A stretch of DNA of 64,000 nt, from contig NZ_FQVC01000001.1 of assembly GCF_900128975.1 (NCBI RefSeq), positions 456,479 through 520,478 on the forward strand, in the 5' to 3' direction. The notes beneath the pieces were generated by a model that saw only the letters and a list, made by a program, of their open reading frames with translations, did no database searches and was not told where the DNA came from. Every line of letters begins with the position of its first letter. Within the stretch, counting starts at the first letter, position 1. Source of the DNA: Devosia limi DSM 17137 (lineage in GTDB: Bacteria; Pseudomonadota; Alphaproteobacteria; Rhizobiales; Devosiaceae). Shown piece by piece: positions 5,495 to 15,044 of this stretch. The position numbers and the translations under genes were made by a program.

Positions 5495-6547
5495 ATGCAC
5501 CTGCCATCTCCTGCCCCCATCGACGCGCCAGCGGTCCTCGACTGGTATGACCACCATGCCCGCAGCCTGCCCTGGCGGGTGCCACCCGCCGAGCGGGCGC
5601 GGGGCGTGGCGCCCGATCCCTATCGGGTCTGGCTCTCCGAGGTGATGCTGCAGCAGACCACCGTGGCGGCGGTGAAGACCTATTTCCTGCGCTTCACCAG
5701 CCTCTGGCCAACGGTGTTCGAGCTGGCGGCAGCGCCGCTCGAGGCGGTGCTGGTGGAATGGGCGGGGCTTGGCTATTACGCGCGCGCCCGCAATCTGCAT
5801 GCCTGTGCGGTGGCGGTGGTGCGCGACCATGGCGGCGTGTTTCCCACCACATCGGCGGGTCTGCAGGCACTGCCCGGAATTGGCGCCTATACCAGCGCTG
5901 CCATTGCGGCGATCTGCTTCGATGAACGGGTCGCCGTACTCGACGGCAATCTCGACCGGGTGCTGGCGCGCTATTTTGCGCTGGCCGTACCGGTGCGCGA
6001 GGCCAAGGAGGAGCTGCGCGCCGCCCTGCAGGCAGCGGTCCCGGCCCGCGCCGGCGATTTTGCCCAGGCGATGATGGACCTGGGCGCCACCATCTGTGCA
6101 CCGCGCACGGCGCTCTGCATGCTGTGCCCGATCCAGCCGGGATGCGCGGCCACGGCAGCGGGCGATCCAACGATCTATCCGGTCAAGCCGGTCAAGGCCG
6201 AGCGGCCGGTGCGCAAGGGCCATGCCTATGTGATGCTGGACAGTGCCGGCGACGTCTATCTGCAGACCCGCCCCGACAAGGGCCTGCTGGCCCAGATGAC
6301 CGAAGTGCCGGGCTCCGACTGGTCTGCGGCGCTGCCCGAGCCCAGTTATCCGGCCCAGGGCGCGTGGCGCCATCGCGGGCAGGTGGTCCATATCTTCACC
6401 CATTTCCGGCTGGAACTGGAAGTTTGGTCGGCCGAAGTGACGCCGGACGGCCTCGATGGCGGCTGGTGGGCCGAGCCAGGGGCGCTGGCGGGCGAGGCCT
6501 TGCCGACGCTGTTTCGCAAGGTGCTGGCCGAGGCGGGGCTGCAATAG
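5495..6547 (+). CDS. mutY: A/G-specific adenine DNA glycosylase MutY
   Basis: This base-excision enzyme removes adenine paired with 8-oxoguanine. At 350 residues it is full length. The catalytic Glu is in LSEVMLQQTT (E49). The helix-hairpin-helix is LQALPGIGAYTSAAI (about 123-137), followed by the catalytic Asp of the GNLDRV segment (D150). Four cysteines in the C-x6-C-x2-C-x5-C pattern (201, 208, 211, 217) bind a 4Fe-4S cluster. The C-terminal part is a NUDIX-like MutT-related domain that recognises 8-oxoG. I chose the ATG giving MHLPSPAPIDAPAVLDWYD; the longer open frame overlaps the divergent DUF721 gene. The next gene starts 76 bp downstream. Confidence 0.96.
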   Translation: MHLPSPAPIDAPAVLDWYDHHARSLPWRVPPAERARGVAPDPYRVWLSEVMLQQTTVAAVKTYFLRFTSLWPTVFELAAAPLEAVLVEWAGLGYYARARNLHACAVAVVRDHGGVFPTTSAGLQALPGIGAYTSAAIAAICFDERVAVLDGNLDRVLARYFALAVPVREAKEELRAALQAAVPARAGDFAQAMMDLGATICAPRTALCMLCPIQPGCAATAAGDPTIYPVKPVKAERPVRKGHAYVMLDSAGDVYLQTRPDKGLLAQMTEVPGSDWSAALPEPSYPAQGAWRHRGQVVHIFTHFRLELEVWSAEVTPDGLDGGWWAEPGALAGEALPTLFRKVLAEAGLQ

Positions 6548-6623
6548 CCAGCTTGCGCCGTTAAGCGCTGGCAATGGTTGCCAAAATCCTGTTTGGTGCG
6601 CCCGGTTTGGACCAGAGACCTTC

Positions 6624-7643
6624 ATGACCTATGCGATTAGCCTGGATCCGGCGCGGATCTATTGTGCCCTGCCGGCCCCGGCCTATTTCAGACGGGAATT
6701 CGAGCGGGTGGGGGCGCGGCCCCCGAAAATCCGCATCCGCTATCGCCAGACCGACAATCCGCCACATGACGTGTTGATCGAGCGGCGCGGAGACGGCTTC
6801 ACCATCGTGCTGGAACAGTCATCCGCGCGGCTGTTCACGCGATTCATGCGCCATAAGGTCTGCGCCTATACCTATTGGCTGAGCCTGTGTGCACCGGCAG
6901 TGACGGGTATCACCGTCAATGCATCGGATGGGGAAGAGGTGTCGCGGGCGCGGTTTTCGCCCTCGGTGCGCTTCCCCCAGCATGTGGCGCTGCCCGATCC
7001 GCATTTTTTCCAGAATCTGGGCTTTGCGCGGGCGCGGGACGCCGGCAGGCAGGCGCCCGACTGGCATGGGCGATCCGACGAAATCGTCTGGCGCGGTGGC
7101 ATGAATGGCACCGGCTGGATGAGCCTGGAGCCGCAGGATGCCGACAATCCGGCCGTGCTGCAGCGCATCCGCATGGTGTTCCGGCTCAAGGGGCTCGATG
7201 GAGTGGATGCCCGCCTGATGGATATGCACCGCAGCGTTGCCCCGTTCACCGCTCTGGCCGATGCCCAGGGACTGCTGGCGGCGCCGTTGCCGGCAACCAC
7301 CTGGCTGGGGCACAAATTCGCCATCGATATCGATGGCTATACCAATACCTGGTCCAACCTGCTGGTGCGCCTGCTCTATGGCTGCTGCGTGCTCAAGGTC
7401 GGCTCGCAATTCGGCTATCGGCAATGGTATTACGATGCCCTGCGTCCCTTCGAACACTATGTGCCGGTCGCGGCGGACATGTCCGATTTCGCCGAAAAGA
7501 TTGACTGGGTGCGCAGTCACCCCGCCGAAGCCGCGGCGATTGCAGCGCGGGGGCAGGCGCTGGCGCAGACGCTGACCTTTGCCAGGGAGGCGCGCCGGGC
7601 GGCGGACCTGATCGAAGCGCATTGGGACCGGACGGAGGTCTAG
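6624..7643 (+). CDS. Glycosyltransferase family 90 (CAP10-like)
   Basis: A 339-residue protein resembling GT90/CAP10 glycosyltransferases. These transfer xylose or glucose from UDP-sugars; in bacteria they are linked to LPS or capsule. Family-like segments are [13 protein letters not shown] (about 153-165), [15 protein letters not shown] (230-244) and the following [14 protein letters not shown] (251-264). It has no signal peptide or membrane span, so it should act in the cytoplasm. It is convergent with a UDP-glucuronate decarboxylase gene; the two stop codons overlap by a few bases. That neighbour makes UDP-xylose, which suggests xylose as donor, but this is inference. The ATG at [13 protein letters not shown] fits; the open frame upstream overlaps mutY. 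Confidence 0.82.
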
Positions 7644-8596
7644 GCTGGTATCGCGGTATCGGCGAGCATGGCCTCGAAATAGGCGATGGTCTGGCGGAGG
7701 CCCGCGTCCAGCTCGACCCGGGGCGACCAGCCGAGGCTGTGCATGGCAAGGCTGATATCGGGGCGGCGCTGGCGCGGGTCGTCGATGGGCAGGGGGCGTT
7801 GCACAAGGCGTGAGCGTGACCGGGTCAGCGCAATGACCTGTGCGGCCAGTTCGCGCATGGTGAATTCCGTCGGATTGCCCAGATTGACCGGACCGGTCAC
7901 CTCGGGGCCGCTGTTCATCAGCATGACCAGGCCATCGAGCAGATCATCGACATAGCAGAACGAGCGGGTCTGCCGGCCATCGCCGTAAAGCGTGATGGCG
8001 TCGCCCTGCAGTGCCTGAACAATGAAATTGGCGACGACGCGGCCATCGGCCGGATGCATGCCGGGGCCATAGGTATTGAAGATGCGCGCCACCTTGATCG
8101 CCACGCCATGCTGGCGGTGGTAATCGAAGAACAGGGTTTCGGCGCTGCGCTTGCCTTCATCATAGCAGGCGCGCGGCCCGATCGGATTGACGTTTCCCCA
8201 ATAGCCTTCCGGCTGCGGATGGATATGGGGATCGCCATAGACTTCGGAGGTCGATGCCTGCAGCACCGGGACGTCGAGGCGCCGGGCCAGATCCAGCATA
8301 TTGATCGCGCCCAGCACGCTGGTCTTGAACGTGGCTATGGGATCGGCCTGGTAATGCACTGGCGAAGCGGGGCAGGCGAGGTTGTAGATCTGGTCGACCG
8401 CCAGTGTCACCGGTTCGCTGACGTCCTGCTGCAGCAGCGTGAAACGGGGGTGACCGAGCAGGTCGGCAATATTGCGTTGCGCGCCAGTGCGGAAATTGTC
8501 GAGACAGACGATTGCATGGCCCTGGGCCAGCAGCTTGCGGCACAGATTTGCGCCGAGGAAGCCAGCGCCGCCGGAAATCAGAATACGTTTAGTCAT
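7640..8596 (-). CDS. UDP-glucuronate decarboxylase (UDP-xylose synthase)
   Basis: An extended short-chain dehydrogenase that converts UDP-glucuronate to UDP-xylose with bound NAD. The Rossmann motif GGAGFLG is at about 9-15 and the catalytic Tyr/Lys are in [12 protein letters not shown] (Y145, K149). Diagnostic UXS segments are [24 protein letters not shown] and YWGNVNPIG, which separate it from UDP-glucose 4-epimerases. The length of 318 residues is normal for soluble bacterial UXS. The start is either this ATG or a GTG two codons upstream. It is the last gene of a probable three-gene minus-strand run (polymerase-like, secreted hydrolase-like, this gene) and ends tail-to-tail over the GT90 gene. 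Confidence 0.9.
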
Positions 8597-8686
8597 AATC
8601 ACTTAGGCGCGCCCCCACCGCGTGCGGGTGCTTAGCGCCATTCGCGGTGGAGGACAAGGCGGCCACCAGGCTGCGGGCGCCGCCGT

Positions 8687-10471
8687 CTATTGGCGCGCGA
8701 GAAAAGCACCGTCGGGGCGCGTTTCCCACCAGGCCGGATTGGCGGCGTTGAACCGGGTTATCGCGTCCCAGCGCGGCGTGCTGTCATCGAGATGGCGCAA
8801 CGCACCCCAGCTGCCCCATTTGCTCGGTGCCGCCACGTCTACGAACAGGGCAAAGGCCTTGCCGCCTGCCGCTTTCCAGGCATCGAGCAGGGCGGTGTAA
8901 AGTGCGCCCATCTGCGGGGAGTAATTCAGCGCGATGTAGAACGCGGTCAGTTCCGCGTTGTCGAGCGCGGCCTCGACACCCACCACATGCGTGCCGCCCT
9001 CATACATGACGAGGTCCAGGCCATGATCCCGGGCGATGCCCGCCTGTCGGGGAAAAGCATGATCGGCCAGCCCGGCAATGCTGTCCTGGCTATTGCCGGT
9101 GACCGAGCCATCCCGCAATTCGCGCGCAGCCAGGGCGATGGCAGCGTCGAACTTGTGGGCCTGGATATGGTCGGCCAACGCCTGGTCCGCAAGGCCAAGG
9201 GCCTTGCCGGCGGCTTCGGCCTCCGACCGGCTAAGAGCAATCCAGCCGAGCACCAGATCGGCCTTTTCGCCCCCCAGCTGGGCGCTGAAATAGCCGGTGA
9301 TCGCATAGGCATCGAAATACGCGGCCGGCGGGCGATGGTTTGCCGGATCTTCAGCGATCCAGAGCGGGGCTTCAAGGATTTCGGTTTCCAGGCCCTCCCA
9401 GCCTGAATGGGTTGCGATGACCTTGACCAGACGATCGGTTTGTCCGGCAAAGGCCGCCTCCCAGATCCTGGCCATCTCCATGGCCCGCACTGCATAGAAC
9501 TGGACCCAGCTATTGGGGCGCCCCCACCGCAGGCGTCCCTGCTCATCGGCCCATTTTGCCTGCTCGAAAATGAAGTTCCAGACTTCGTTGGACAATTCGA
9601 CATGCACCTTGAGGTCGTCGCGAAGCCCGTCGCGCACCATGGCGGCGAACTGGGCCATGTAGTCATTGCTCGCCAGGTGAGGCATGTTGAACCAGGGGTC
9701 GGCGCCAATGCGATTGGCCAGCGCCAGCATGATCTCCAGCGGCGCGCCACGCCGGGTATAGGTATAGTCGCTGACCTGGGGCCGGCCGGCCCAATCCGAC
9801 TGGGTGGAATTGTTCGTCTGCATCCAGTCCATGAACCGCAGCATGCGCATGTTCTCGATCAGCGCCAGCCATTGGGGATTGAAGATCTCGCCCGCCTCAT
9901 AGGCGGCAATGTCGCGTTCGTGGACGATGGTGATGTTGCGGATATACTCCCCGATCCGGCGTGGATCGGTCCGCGAGATGACCACATTGACGATGGTATT
10001 GTCGGGCGTGACCTCGAACCAGAGCAATCCCGGCCGGCTGGGCCTGCGGGGCGCGCCGCCGGCCCTGACCTCGATCTGCCCTTCGCCTTCATAGGTGAGC
10101 CGATAGACACCGCGCGTGGAAACCGCGCCCACCGGCAGGTCGGCGAGCAGGACTGTACTGACCGATTCAAGCGCCGGGGGTATCGCCTTCAGCCACCCCT
10201 GTGTGTCCAGATAACCCTCATCGGCCAGGCGCTGATGATCCCAGCCGCCCCATTGCCCGGGCAGATGCCCTATCCAGGTGCTCGCGGTTTTCATGATGTC
10301 CAGGAACGGCAGCTGGCTGGCGTAATAGTCGAGACCGCTCAACCCGATGCCGACGGACGGATTGCCCAGTTCGCCGGCCTCGGTTGCCTGCGCGCGTGCC
10401 GGCAGGCTCCAGAGCTGGGCCGTGCAGAGTGCAATTGTGAACACGAGTGCGGCGAGAAACTTGGGGCGCAT
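8687..10471 (-). CDS. Secreted protein, candidate clan-A-type glycoside hydrolase
   Basis: A 594-residue exported protein. The N-terminus (MRPKFLAALVFTIALCTAQLWSLPARAQA) is a clear signal peptide. I cannot assign a named family. Two features resemble clan-A (TIM-barrel) glycosidases: an Asn-Glu pair in VELSNEVWN (N295, E296) and a second Glu in LVMYEGGTH (E491). In that clan the acid/base follows an Asn, and the nucleophile lies about 100-200 residues later. The protein is rich in Trp and other aromatics, as in glycan-binding clefts. It lies between a polymerase-like membrane protein and UDP-xylose synthase, so trimming or releasing the glycan made here is a reasonable inference. The start was chosen at the signal peptide; the upstream open frame overlaps the next gene. 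Confidence 0.65.
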   Translation of the reverse strand: MRPKFLAALVFTIALCTAQLWSLPARAQATEAGELGNPSVGIGLSGLDYYASQLPFLDIMKTASTWIGHLPGQWGGWDHQRLADEGYLDTQGWLKAIPPALESVSTVLLADLPVGAVSTRGVYRLTYEGEGQIEVRAGGAPRRPSRPGLLWFEVTPDNTIVNVVISRTDPRRIGEYIRNITIVHERDIAAYEAGEIFNPQWLALIENMRMLRFMDWMQTNNSTQSDWAGRPQVSDYTYTRRGAPLEIMLALANRIGADPWFNMPHLASNDYMAQFAAMVRDGLRDDLKVHVELSNEVWNFIFEQAKWADEQGRLRWGRPNSWVQFYAVRAMEMARIWEAAFAGQTDRLVKVIATHSGWEGLETEILEAPLWIAEDPANHRPPAAYFDAYAITGYFSAQLGGEKADLVLGWIALSRSEAEAAGKALGLADQALADHIQAHKFDAAIALAARELRDGSVTGNSQDSIAGLADHAFPRQAGIARDHGLDLVMYEGGTHVVGVEAALDNAELTAFYIALNYSPQMGALYTALLDAWKAAGGKAFALFVDVAAPSKWGSWGALRHLDDSTPRWDAITRFNAANPAWWETRPDGAFLARQ

Positions 10472-10503
10472 GGCGGGCGTGGCTCTTATGGACAGGTCGG
10501 CGG

Positions 10504-11943
10504 CTAGGACTTGGGCGTGGCCCGCAGATTGGCATCGGCGCGCGACCGCGATTTCGCCCAGGGCGCGGGTTCCGATTGCCGGTGCCGCGGCGTTGCCGCG
10601 CTGCGCGATGCGCTGCCCAATTCTGCATGGCCCAGGATTGCCCCGGCCAGCAACCAGGTGAGGGGGACCAGAGTAGCGTTGGGCAGAAGATCGAACAGGT
10701 TGGCAGCGTAGATCAGCGCCAGTGGACCGGCATAGCGCGAAAGCTTGGTCCTGGCGGTGAAGCTGACGCGCGCCAGGACCAGCAGGGGGAGTGCGAGAAG
10801 CCCGAATTCGCCGACAAAGCCTGCCCATCCGGAGACGCTCATCACTTCGATCCAGCGTCCATCGATGACCGACAGGCGCTGCCCGGATATCACATCGTGC
10901 AGGTGGTTGCGCGCCCAGCCGCCCCAGCCGAACAGGGACCGTTCAGCGGCATGTCCGATCAGCAGCGCCTCGTTGTTCAGCCGGTAGACGAGCGAACCGG
11001 CGCGATCGGCATCGAAGGACATGGCCTGGGCAACAATCCAGTCGACGGGAACGAGTTGGGCCCCGCGCAAGGCAGGGTAAAGCAAGGCCAGGCAGGCCAG
11101 TGCCGCCGAAACAGCAATTTGGGCGCGCTGGCGCATGAACAGCACAACGGGGGCCAGGAAAACCACATAGACCAGCACGCCGGCGCTCTTGCACAGATAC
11201 AGGACCACCAGCAGATAGAGCGCGGCGAACATGTAGCGCGTGCGCATGGGGCCAGCCTCGGTTCGCGCCAGTGCCAGGGCCGCCAGGAAGGTCATCAGCG
11301 CGAAGAGCGCCACCCACAGGCCATGCGGCATGAAGACGATGGGCCGGAAGCCGCCATACCGCATCATCTGCCCAAAATCGTGCTGGAAGAAGCCATAGAC
11401 CCAGACATTGATCTGCGGACTGAGGCGAACCTCGATCAGCATGGGTATGGAATAGATCAGGCCGGCAATCACCAGGGCGACGAGGATGTCGCGCAGCGCC
11501 TCGTCGTCGTGCAGGAGCGCGCGGCCAAGCAGAAAGGGAATGGCGACGATGATGCGTTCCAGCACCATTGTCGGCAGTTCTTGAATCTGCATGCCGGGCA
11601 ATCCGCCATAACCGAACAGGATGACATCGGAATTGGTCAGGACGGTGCCGATCGGACTGAGGATGAAGATCGCCAATAGCAGGCGGCCCAGCATCGACAC
11701 CGGCAGCAGCTTTGGCAGGCCCTCCTTCGCAGTCGCCAGGGCGAACAGCGCACTCAGACTGGCGATGGCGAATTTATCGAGATCGGGCAGGATCAGCAGG
11801 TCCAGGGCGGCCCTGGGCGGCAAGATCATATAGCCGCCAAGTATCGTCCAGATCAGCGCCCGACCCGGCGGCAGGCGACGAAACAGCAGGATCGTCACCA
11901 GCGGCCAGACGCACAGCATCAGATAGGCAAGCATATTCGGCAT
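10504..11943 (-). CDS. O-antigen polymerase/ligase-like membrane protein
   Basis: A 479-residue polytopic protein with about ten to twelve hydrophobic segments, starting MPNMLAYLMLCVWPLVTILLF. A large loop (about 310-385) lies between membrane segments, and the layout resembles Wzy polymerases and WaaL ligases, whose sequences are poorly conserved. The motif-like stretch SLFGWGGWARN in that loop recalls the FGxGWG-type segment of O-antigen polymerase relatives. The role is therefore polymerising or ligating a surface glycan at the inner membrane, inferred from topology and neighbours. The C-terminal tail is Arg/Ala rich and probably cytoplasmic. The 32-bp gap to the secreted hydrolase-like gene suggests an operon. 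It diverges from a GMC oxidoreductase gene. Confidence 0.75.
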   Translation of the reverse strand: MPNMLAYLMLCVWPLVTILLFRRLPPGRALIWTILGGYMILPPRAALDLLILPDLDKFAIASLSALFALATAKEGLPKLLPVSMLGRLLLAIFILSPIGTVLTNSDVILFGYGGLPGMQIQELPTMVLERIIVAIPFLLGRALLHDDEALRDILVALVIAGLIYSIPMLIEVRLSPQINVWVYGFFQHDFGQMMRYGGFRPIVFMPHGLWVALFALMTFLAALALARTEAGPMRTRYMFAALYLLVVLYLCKSAGVLVYVVFLAPVVLFMRQRAQIAVSAALACLALLYPALRGAQLVPVDWIVAQAMSFDADRAGSLVYRLNNEALLIGHAAERSLFGWGGWARNHLHDVISGQRLSVIDGRWIEVMSVSGWAGFVGEFGLLALPLLVLARVSFTARTKLSRYAGPLALIYAANLFDLLPNATLVPLTWLLAGAILGHAELGSASRSAATPRHRQSEPAPWAKSRSRADANLRATPKS

Positions 11944-12160
11944 GGCGATCCGGCGGTTCTGAACTCTTGCGGACCATCCTAGCCGCTCATCGGGCGGATC
12001 GGAAACGCGATCCATCCGGTTGGTTGATGATCGCGCGAAGGTGACCAGGCCCGGGCTGGTGTCCGGGCACCCGGCAACGCGCCGGGGTGCCGCAATCCTG
12101 CCATTTCTTCGTCAGCTTCAGCAAGCGAGGCGCGAGAAATCCAAAATCGCAGGCTGTTTC

Positions 12161-12177
12161 GAGCAATGTGCTTGCTC
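12161..12177. promoter_or_regulatory. Small inverted repeat in divergent promoter region
   Basis: GAGCAA and TTGCTC form a perfect 6-bp inverted repeat with a 5-nt spacer, 70-86 bp upstream of the GMC oxidoreductase start. It lies in the 303-bp gap shared with the polymerase-like gene. It may be part of an operator region together with the palindrome at 12186-12205. This short repeat alone could be chance. Confidence 0.35.
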
Positions 12178-12185
12178 ACGCCTGT

Positions 12186-12205
12186 TTTGTATTGGAAAAT
12201 ACAAA
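12186..12205. promoter_or_regulatory. 20-bp AT-rich palindrome, candidate operator
   Basis: TTTGTATT and AATACAAA form a perfect 8-bp inverted repeat with a 4-nt spacer, in an otherwise GC-rich region. It sits 42-61 bp upstream of the GMC oxidoreductase ATG, inside the divergent gap. The symmetry and length fit a dimeric repressor or activator site. The cognate regulator is not in this window. Confidence 0.55.
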
Positions 12206-12246
12206 CTGGGCGTGCCCATCCGGCGGTCGCCTCGCTGGAGAATAGC

Positions 12247-13797
12247 ATGTTCTCTGAGATACTTACCAAGCACTGGGACGCCATCGTCATCGGTTCTGGC
12301 CTGGGGGGCGGCAGCGTTGGACGGCAACTCGCCGAACAGGGGGCCTCGGTATTGTTTATCGAGCGCGGTCCTGCCAACCCCGCCCAGATCAGCGCGCAGG
12401 ACGACCCGAGCAGCGACTTTGAGCGCGGTCTTTGGCAGGTGCCGGTCGATGGGACCATCGATGGCCGCCTCCAGAAATTCCACGATGCATTCGGCGCGGG
12501 CGTTGGCGGCTCCTCCACCTTCTATGCCGCAACGCTGGAACGCCCCGAGCGCTCCGACCTGGACGACAGCCCCGCGCGGCCCCATCCGACCGGGGGATGG
12601 CCCGTTGGCTACGACGCCTATAGTCCCTATTTTGCCGAGGCGGAAAAACGCTTTTTCGTCTGTGGCGAACAGGACCCGCTATCGCATGACCTGGGCACCC
12701 TGCTCAGACCCCCCGAGCTTCCCGCCGGCGACATGGCACTGATCGAAGATTTCCGCCGCCACGGCCTGCACCCTTACCGCAACCATATGGGTGTTCGGTA
12801 TGTGCCCGGCTGTACGAATTGCCTGGGCCGCGCCTGCGGTCGGAACTGCAAGATGGAAGGCCGCTCGGCGGGGGTCGAGCCGGCGCTGGCGACCGGCCGC
12901 AGCGCGCTGCTGGCCAATTGCGCGGCGATTGCCCTGCGCGGCAGCAATAACACCATTTCGCATCTGGACGTGGAACTGGGCGGCGTCCGCCATGCCCTGC
13001 GGGCCAAGACCTATATTCTGGCAGCCGGTGGCTTCGGATCACCGCGCCTGTTACTGGCGTCGCGATCCGATCAATGGCCCGACGGCCTGGCGAACGCCTC
13101 GGGCCTCGTCGGCCGCAACCTCATGTTCCATCTGCTTGAATCGGTCGTGATCTGGCCCGAGCGGCGGACCAGGATCAGTGCCCCGTCCAAAGCGATAACC
13201 CTGCGCGACCTCTACTGGCACGAGGGCATGCGACTGGGCGCGCTGCAGTCGGCGGGGCTGGATGCCCTATATGGAGAGGTGTCGTACGCGCTCAGCACGC
13301 ACTTGACCGGTTCGGCACTTGGGCGGCTGGCCAATACGCTGAAGCTGAACTCGGCGCTGGCCCGCGTTATCTATCGGCGGCGCGGGACCGGCAAGGTGTT
13401 TCGGGCCATCATCGAAGACCTGCCCTATGAGCACAATCGGGTCGTCTTCGATCCCGATAATCCGGAGCGCCTGCAGTTCAGCTACAATTTTTCCGACGAA
13501 TTGCGGGAGCGCCACCGGGCCTTCCGGCAATTGCTGCGCCAGCGGCTTTCGGGCCAGCGGACCATGTTTCTCAAGCCCAAGCCCGAACTTGACATCACCC
13601 ATGCCTGCGGGACGCTCCGGTTTGGCGACAATCCGCGCACCAGCGTACTCAATGCGGACTGCCGGGCCCATGACGTCGAAAATCTCTATGTGGCCGATGC
13701 AAGTTTCTTCCCCACCTCGGCCGGGATCAATCCCGGCCTGTTGATCGCGGCCAATGCGATTCGCGTCGCCGATCGCGTTCTGGCAGCGATGCGCTGA
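12247..13797 (+). CDS. GMC-family FAD oxidoreductase
   Basis: A flavoprotein of the glucose-methanol-choline family, 516 residues. The N-terminal FAD-binding motif is DAIVIGSGLGGGSVG (about 11-25) with the ribose-binding Glu in LFIERG (E39). The C-terminal family segment runs from ITHACGTLRFG to NLYVADASFFPTSAGINPGLLIAANAIRVAD. A four-cysteine cluster CTNCLGRACGRNC (189-201), with spacing C-x2-C-x4-C-x3-C, may bind metal or form disulfides; I do not know its function. The substrate cannot be read from sequence; an alcohol or sugar is likely. I chose the ATG preceded by GGAG six nt upstream. It diverges from the glycan polymerase-like gene and may oxidise a sugar residue, which is only inference. 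Confidence 0.87.
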   Translation: MFSEILTKHWDAIVIGSGLGGGSVGRQLAEQGASVLFIERGPANPAQISAQDDPSSDFERGLWQVPVDGTIDGRLQKFHDAFGAGVGGSSTFYAATLERPERSDLDDSPARPHPTGGWPVGYDAYSPYFAEAEKRFFVCGEQDPLSHDLGTLLRPPELPAGDMALIEDFRRHGLHPYRNHMGVRYVPGCTNCLGRACGRNCKMEGRSAGVEPALATGRSALLANCAAIALRGSNNTISHLDVELGGVRHALRAKTYILAAGGFGSPRLLLASRSDQWPDGLANASGLVGRNLMFHLLESVVIWPERRTRISAPSKAITLRDLYWHEGMRLGALQSAGLDALYGEVSYALSTHLTGSALGRLANTLKLNSALARVIYRRRGTGKVFRAIIEDLPYEHNRVVFDPDNPERLQFSYNFSDELRERHRAFRQLLRQRLSGQRTMFLKPKPELDITHACGTLRFGDNPRTSVLNADCRAHDVENLYVADASFFPTSAGINPGLLIAANAIRVADRVLAAMR

Positions 13798-13820
13798 TGC
13801 CGGGGCCTGCAGGGGGCAAC

Positions 13821-13849
13821 AAAAAGGCCGCCGGGGCAAACCGGCGGCC
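13821..13849 (-). terminator. Intrinsic terminator of ccrM
   Basis: GGCCGCCGG and CCGGCGGCC form a perfect 9-bp GC stem with a 6-nt loop. On the minus strand it is followed directly by five T. It lies 37 bp after the ccrM stop codon in the 88-bp convergent gap. Plus-strand transcripts of the GMC gene would meet the same hairpin without a T-run. Confidence 0.85.
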
Positions 13850-13885
13850 AGTTAATAGAGCCTGAGACGTGATTGGAGGTCAGGA

Positions 13886-15044
<1,159 letters not shown>

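Follow-up and report, generated by a model that had tools for sequence, protein, structure and literature searches.

Glycan genes between mutY and ccrM of Devosia limi include a probable detached part of an exopolysaccharide cluster

A 64-kb stretch of the 4.3-Mb genome of Devosia limi DSM 17137 (here the window; positions 456479 to 520478 of the contig labeled C11, with kb positions on C11 counted along the contig) carries five adjacent genes that raise the question of whether they serve one surface glycan and, if not, where their partners are encoded. In window coordinates, these are genes for a GT90 (CAP10-type) glycosyltransferase (6624..7643, plus strand, 339 aa), a UXS-type UDP-glucuronate decarboxylase or UDP-xylose synthase (7640..8602, minus strand, 320 aa, with a GTG start and an ATG two codons further in), a predicted secreted TIM-barrel glycoside hydrolase (GH; 8687..10471, minus strand, 594 aa), a Wzy-like polymerase (10504..11943, minus strand, 479 aa, with nine membrane segments by simple hydropathy count) and a GMC flavin oxidoreductase (12247..13797, plus strand). 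Inspection by eye revealed a signal-peptide-like N-terminus for the GH and no evident signal peptide for the GT90 and GMC proteins. A first-pass annotation had called all five genes correctly and had read them as one locus for a xylose-containing surface glycan. Instead, the genes were found to form two modules, Wzy/GH/GMC and the UXS and GT90 pair, that are joined only by their neighborhood in this genome. With moderate confidence, we consider the block at 8687-13797 (Wzy, GH and GMC) to belong to a Wzx/Wzy-type exopolysaccharide cluster from which it is detached, the remaining genes being on the same contig at a downstream distance of about 120 kb.

The Wzy, hydrolase and GMC genes and their likely partners

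The distribution of the Wzy, GH and GMC genes was determined in a family sample of 121 genomes, with the window's own genome counted. Homologues of the GH and Wzy proteins were detected in the same three genomes, i.e., the own genome, Devosia submarina (G102) and another Devosia genome (G106). Matches to the GMC protein were found in nine genomes, in which the same three formed one group (51-53% identity to the window protein) and the other six were at 32-34%. In G102 and G106, the Wzy, GH and GMC genes were within about 8 kb of each other and were surrounded by genes for a Wzx flippase, glycosyltransferases, a flavin reductase, a phosphopantetheinyl-transferase-like protein and a large AMP-binding/luciferase-like/carrier enzyme. 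G106 had, in addition, genes for a priming sugar transferase and an acyltransferase-SGNH protein; the part of G102 that was read showed no priming transferase.

Five of these partners, namely the flavin reductase, Wzx, the priming transferase, the phosphopantetheinyl transferase and the large enzyme, had relatives (47-74% identity) in the own genome, all encoded in a single run at C11:590-599 kb that is separated from the window block by about 120 kb. This run included the Wzx match (PF13440) at C11:590.9 kb and the priming transferase match (PF02397) at C11:593.2 kb, and was adjoined by dTDP-rhamnose-type genes, a Wza-like export gene (Poly_export), an ATPase gene and a weakly Wzz-like gene (E 0.004, under the cut-off). 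Further along this distant half were glycosyltransferase-like genes and the gene for a second very large protein (2143 aa, L192:777-7208) with local similarity to the adenylation/luciferase-like enzyme. No PF02397 or PF13440 match was detected in the 64-kb window itself, all matches of the genome being elsewhere, in agreement with the earlier remark that the window lacks a flippase and a priming transferase. The accompanying suggestion of a backbone made elsewhere likewise held up, as the rest of the pathway is likely the run about 120 kb away, the counterparts of which surround the Wzy, GH and GMC genes of two other Devosia.

The only homologue of the window Wzy in the own genome was the protein itself. 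Within the 60 kb at C11:589.9-649.6 kb, no called open reading frame (ORF) besides Wzx had at least eight hydrophobic segments; hence no second polymerase-like protein was seen in this region. The cluster thus looks split, based on the partner genes about 120 kb away, the single Wzy homologue and the lack of a second polytopic candidate in these 60 kb. At the level of the genome, the components of a Wzx/Wzy-dependent pathway that were found included a priming transferase, a flippase, a Poly_export protein and the window Wzy, with the Wzz-like protein below cut-off. Assignment of the window Wzy as the polymerase of the run at C11:590 kb is consistent with the co-location observed in two relatives and with the absence of another polytopic candidate in 60 kb, and has to be weighed against the other Wzx genes of this genome. 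The GMC protein matched PF05199 (E 2.6e-17) and PF00732, and its nearest solved relatives were an FAD (flavin adenine dinucleotide) glucose dehydrogenase (E 1.5e-27) and fructose dehydrogenase (E 2e-23); it is probably a sugar oxidase or dehydrogenase.

The GH had no match in Pfam up to E 10 or in NCBIfam up to E 1, its sequence profile matched no solved structure in the PDB at E up to 1, and none of 43 family members matched a Pfam GH family at E up to 0.1 (above which HMMER filters discard most matches). By sequence match it was placed in none of the named families GH51, GH39 and GH79, and it represents a hydrolase family without a name in the Pfam and NCBIfam libraries searched. An AF2 model built from the 43-sequence alignment (predicted local distance difference test, pLDDT, 89; predicted template modeling score 0.90) was nearest to GH51 arabinofuranosidases in VIA comparisons (Z 23.8, root-mean-square deviation 3.2, 301 aligned), with a bacterial heparanase practically tied (Z 22.9) and GH39 beta-xylosidases at Z of about 20. 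The 50 VIA matches shown (Z 19.1-23.8, 271-307 aligned, root-mean-square deviation 2.6-4.0) were to GH51, heparanase/beta-glucuronidase, GH39, GH5, GH164 and similar enzymes, and the GH51, GH39 and similar matches we take to be members of clan GH-A. Foldseek alone placed beta-glucuronidases, an agarase and a GH164 mannosidase on top, with TM-scores of about 0.2-0.3.

Clan GH-A, to which GH39 belongs, is characterized by an Asn-Glu acid/base after strand 4 and a Glu nucleophile at strand 7. In the GH (591-aa numbering), N292-E293 comes after the strand 286-290 and E488 is the end of the strand 483-488, and all three residues were invariant in 43/43 homologues. By their position at the ends of two strands and their invariance, these residues fit the clan GH-A catalytic pair. 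The protein is thus probably a TIM-barrel hydrolase of clan GH-A, with E293 and E488 as the putative catalytic glutamates, and the glycosidase-like Glu residues pointed out by the first-pass annotation in this secreted protein are substantiated by the model and the alignment. RTX calcium-binding repeats were matched in 19 of the 43 GH relatives (E up to 0.1), which suggests export of these relatives, by type I secretion.

When named genomes were scanned with the GH alignment, at least 540 relatives were found among 593 candidate stretches. The best 80 were kept, and with G106 these provided a set of 81 loci. Nearly all of the best 80 were from Rhodobacterales, with exceptions that include D. 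submarina, one Caulobacter and one Brevundimonas metagenome-assembled genome (MAG). Of the 81 loci, 54 had a labeled Wzx relative, 39 had a priming transferase and 60 had the large enzyme or one of its relatives; these totals count G106 and D. submarina, from which the queries were taken, and include several short loci (ORF choice recovered the GH itself in only 75) and weak matches to the large enzyme that may come from its common adenylation domain. The GH, Wzx, Wzy, GMC and large enzyme genes were all within 20.5 kb in a Rhodobacteraceae MAG (L058). The window block thus resembles the exopolysaccharide loci of D. submarina, G106 and the Rhodobacterales in its GH, and differs from these loci in that the parts are about 120 kb apart in the window genome and UXS and GT90 genes are beside one part. 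The large enzyme of such loci (L158:4624-9237, L010:13922-18541 and relatives) is about 1.5k residues with formyltransferase, AMP-binding, luciferase-like monooxygenase and carrier-protein regions. A literature search on luciferase-like monooxygenases or nonribosomal peptide synthetases with exopolysaccharide found nothing directly relevant.

A related system is the Psl cluster of Pseudomonas aeruginosa, in which the periplasmic hydrolase PslG (GH39) is encoded in the Psl operon (PMC10485009). The two systems are alike in that a secreted glycoside hydrolase is encoded within an exopolysaccharide biosynthetic cluster, and GH39 enzymes are among the fold matches of the Devosia GH (Z of about 20); the Devosia GH differs in that its best fold matches are GH51 enzymes and its sequence profile finds no solved structure at E up to 1. 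Taken together, this is mostly a known kind of system, its unusual features being the split layout and the unnamed hydrolase family. This family, common in the exopolysaccharide loci of Rhodobacterales among the best 80 loci, could yield polymer-specific cutting enzymes.

The UXS and GT90 pair

The UXS protein aligned with human UXS1 over residues 5-313 (309 residues; E 1e-111, 376 bits). The catalytic residues of UXS enzymes lie in TSE and YxxxK stretches, and the corresponding STSEVYGDP and YDEGK of the window protein were aligned with those of UXS1. The full-length similarity to a characterized UXS and these catalytic stretches place the protein in the UXS family. The GT90 protein scored over the PF05686 (CAP10) cut-off (E 6e-13, 48.8 bits, cut-off 24), with a match only to the C-terminal part of the profile (214-300 of 396), and is likewise a member of its family; a profile of five GT90 sequences found POGLUT2, POGLUT1 and Rumi in the PDB (E 3e-20 to 2e-6).

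The two genes were found to co-occur in relatives, as the first-pass annotation would lead one to expect. UXS (scanned at E 1e-60) was detected in 50 and GT90 (scanned at E 1e-10) in nine of the 121 family genomes, with UXS present in 8/9 genomes with GT90 compared to 42/112 others (Fisher p 0.004, uncorrected for kinship). The sole GT90 genome without UXS was an 87% complete assembly (G073). A profile search of 385 class genomes at E 1e-30 added four GT90 genomes, all with UXS, giving UXS in 12 of 13 GT90 genomes overall. The UXS and GT90 genes were adjacent in five of the nine family genomes with GT90 (the own genome, G008, G076, G117 and G035). In the others with both genes, these were about 650 kb apart (G014) or on different contigs (G063 and G038, in the latter both near contig ends). 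Two of these genomes, G076 and G117, are closely related (proteins 83-100% identical across the stretch), the GT90 match of G117 is split over two reading frames, and GT90 in G035 is recognizable only from about 54 C-terminal residues; the independent intact cases of adjacency are therefore three. At L132:9421-9582 and 9715-10899, the short GT90 remnant of G035 is convergent with UXS and adjoins a Wzy_C gene. In a UXS tree, the window UXS was apart from those of G008, G076 and G117; several deep supports were low (from 0.13), and no count of independent pairings was drawn. Co-occurrence of the two genes supports UDP-xylose as a likely donor of the GT90, which is probably a xylosyltransferase, judging from the neighboring UXS.

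The apiose operon of Xanthomonas pisi, with a UDP-apiose/xylose synthase (UAS) and a GT90 apiosyltransferase (PMC6193724), is the direct precedent for the pair. In both cases a UDP-glucuronic acid (UDP-GlcA) decarboxylase of the short-chain dehydrogenase/reductase family is encoded directly beside a GT90, which in X. pisi uses its product (PMC6193724). The Devosia pair differs in that its synthase is of the UXS and not the UAS type, its genes are convergent and no GT2 transferase is directly beside it. UDP-apiose, considered as a product because of the X. pisi operon, is disfavored by the scores (376 bits to human UXS1 compared to only 73 bits to a plant UDP-apiose/xylose synthase), such that UDP-xylose is the predicted product. 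Our literature search on bacterial UXS and GT90 xylosyltransferases returned only apiose work as directly relevant (PMC6193724 and PMC5607165).

These distributions bear on the view that a single five-gene locus builds, polymerises and trims one xylose-containing glycan. Adjacency speaks for this view, as do the shared strand of the Wzy, GH and UXS genes, their gaps of 32 nucleotides (nt) between Wzy and GH and 84 nt between GH and UXS, and the presence in G035 of a different Wzy_C gene near UXS and the GT90 remnant. By contrast, the five-gene set was shared by no other genome of the family sample, the four other genomes with UXS beside GT90 (G008, G076, G117 and G035) had no relative of the window GH or Wzy, and no UXS or GT90 was present in the 19 kb read around the Wzy, GH and GMC genes of G102 and G106. 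A conserved five-gene unit was thus rejected, and the original proposal of one conserved locus acting on one glycan did not hold; a single-glycan locus in D. limi itself we regard as unlikely.

Proposed working of the two parts and points against it

If the Wzy, GH and GMC block is indeed a detached part of the distant cluster, the distant half would build a lipid-linked repeat unit that Wzx would flip and that the window Wzy would polymerise. The secreted GH may then cut, trim or release the polymer during or after export, by analogy with PslG for Psl, and oxidation of a sugar residue by the GMC enzyme may take place in the cytoplasm. UXS would convert UDP-GlcA to UDP-xylose, possibly fed by a UDP-glucose-dehydrogenase-type enzyme, the gene for which is on contig C8 and which could supply its substrate. 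The GT90 would transfer xylose to a glycan acceptor, which may be the exopolysaccharide repeat unit or a different glycan of the cell surface. The polymer may plausibly contain xylose. Locally, a role of UXS in its synthesis is hinted at only by the arrangement of the Wzy, GH and UXS genes, which may be co-transcribed because they are on one strand with short gaps (32 and 84 nt). A literature search found no paper on the composition of Devosia exopolysaccharide.

Several observations weigh against this assignment. The Wzy match is weak: the window protein alone matched Wzy_C at E 0.013, below the cut-off, and while all five aligned family members gave matches within E 1 (the best at 2.5e-6), the Wzy model was poor (pLDDT 67), Foldseek with this model gave no match at E 0.001 and the fold comparison was not used. 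That the distant half lacks a polymerase is concluded from ORFs chosen mechanically and from counting hydrophobic segments across 60 kb. Other Wzx-type genes are on contigs C8 and C6 and other priming transferases on C24 and C16, and the window Wzy could therefore serve another cluster. A relative of the window Wzy was found in only five and of the window GMC in only three of the 81 GH loci. With regard to xylose, the neighborhoods of G102 and G106 free of UXS and GT90 imply that the polymer need not contain this sugar, UXS has other uses since it was found in 42 family genomes without a GT90 match, two of the five adjacent pairs are from close relatives and a third has a GT90 remnant only, and in none of the four further class genomes did the 14-20 kb read around the GT90 gene include UXS.

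Weighing these points, we retain the detached-cluster assignment, by which a probable place is provided for the pathway part that had appeared to be missing, with candidates for one polymerase, one hydrolase and one xylose cassette. A broader proposal is speculative and in our view improbable: the GH would found a clan GH-A family devoted to exopolysaccharides with a formyltransferase/adenylation/luciferase-like monooxygenase/carrier-protein enzyme, the polymers of which would bear an unusual amino-acid-derived group and, in this genome, xylose added by UXS and GT90.

The mutY-ccrM interval

The five genes are located in the interval between mutY and ccrM (window 6548-13885), which is variable across Devosia. 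The surrounding order, SMC-dsbA-mutY and ccrM-rnhB, was kept in 16/16 Devosia stretches (from 24 genomes searched, G102 and G106 being among the 16), and the mutY-ccrM distance ranged from 73 bp to 5.4 kb. None of the five window genes had a match in the mutY-ccrM interval of these 16 stretches (tblastn, E 1e-10), and the Wzy, GH and GMC genes of G102 and G106 were outside the slot. Ten slot proteins from six intervals were scanned and were found to include diguanylate cyclases, a chemoreceptor, an aldo-keto reductase, an ATP-binding cassette (ABC) transporter, a pilus-like/VWA protein, a DUF6602 protein and two proteins without a match. The slot thus looks permissive.

Accordingly, the two modules could have landed in this slot independently and be functionally unlinked, with UXS and GT90 modifying a lipopolysaccharide core, glycolipid or other glycan. 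The kept gene order, the variable interval with its other kinds of genes, and the ABC transporter genes around the UXS and GT90 pairs of G076, G117 and G035 are consistent with this explanation. Arguing against it, both modules consist of glycan genes, UXS is the next gene after GH, 84 nt away and on the same strand, and the pair of G008 is near an acyltransferase-SGNH gene and a polysaccharide deacetylase gene, such that the context of the UXS and GT90 pairs is mixed. We consider independent landing a serious possibility that falls somewhat short of probable.

The sequence of the block is also informative on whether it is a decaying leftover rather than a working polymerase module. Separation from the likely partners by about 120 kb would be in line with decay. 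By contrast, all five reading frames are open, the putative catalytic residues are conserved, codon use is even (GC at third codon positions 0.77-0.79) and the partner genes 120 kb away are open frames as well; decay is thus very improbable. The GC content of the block (0.638) is near that of the window (0.642), and composition therefore shows no sign of recent foreign origin. Repeats that could mark a mobile element or flank the block were limited to short, imperfect matches, and scans for promoters and terminators gave no more than expected from shuffled sequence. The GT90 and UXS genes are convergent, with ends that overlap by 4 nt.

Both borders of the slot are outside the glycan genes. 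On the left, mutY (5495..6547, plus strand; start inferred) was identified by its HhH-GPD and NUDIX_4 domains and by synteny in 16/16 stretches. On the right, ccrM (13886..15019, minus strand) was identified by synteny and by its match to the NCBIfam CcrM model (E 3e-191), the 635 bits of which are under the model's own cut-off of 830.

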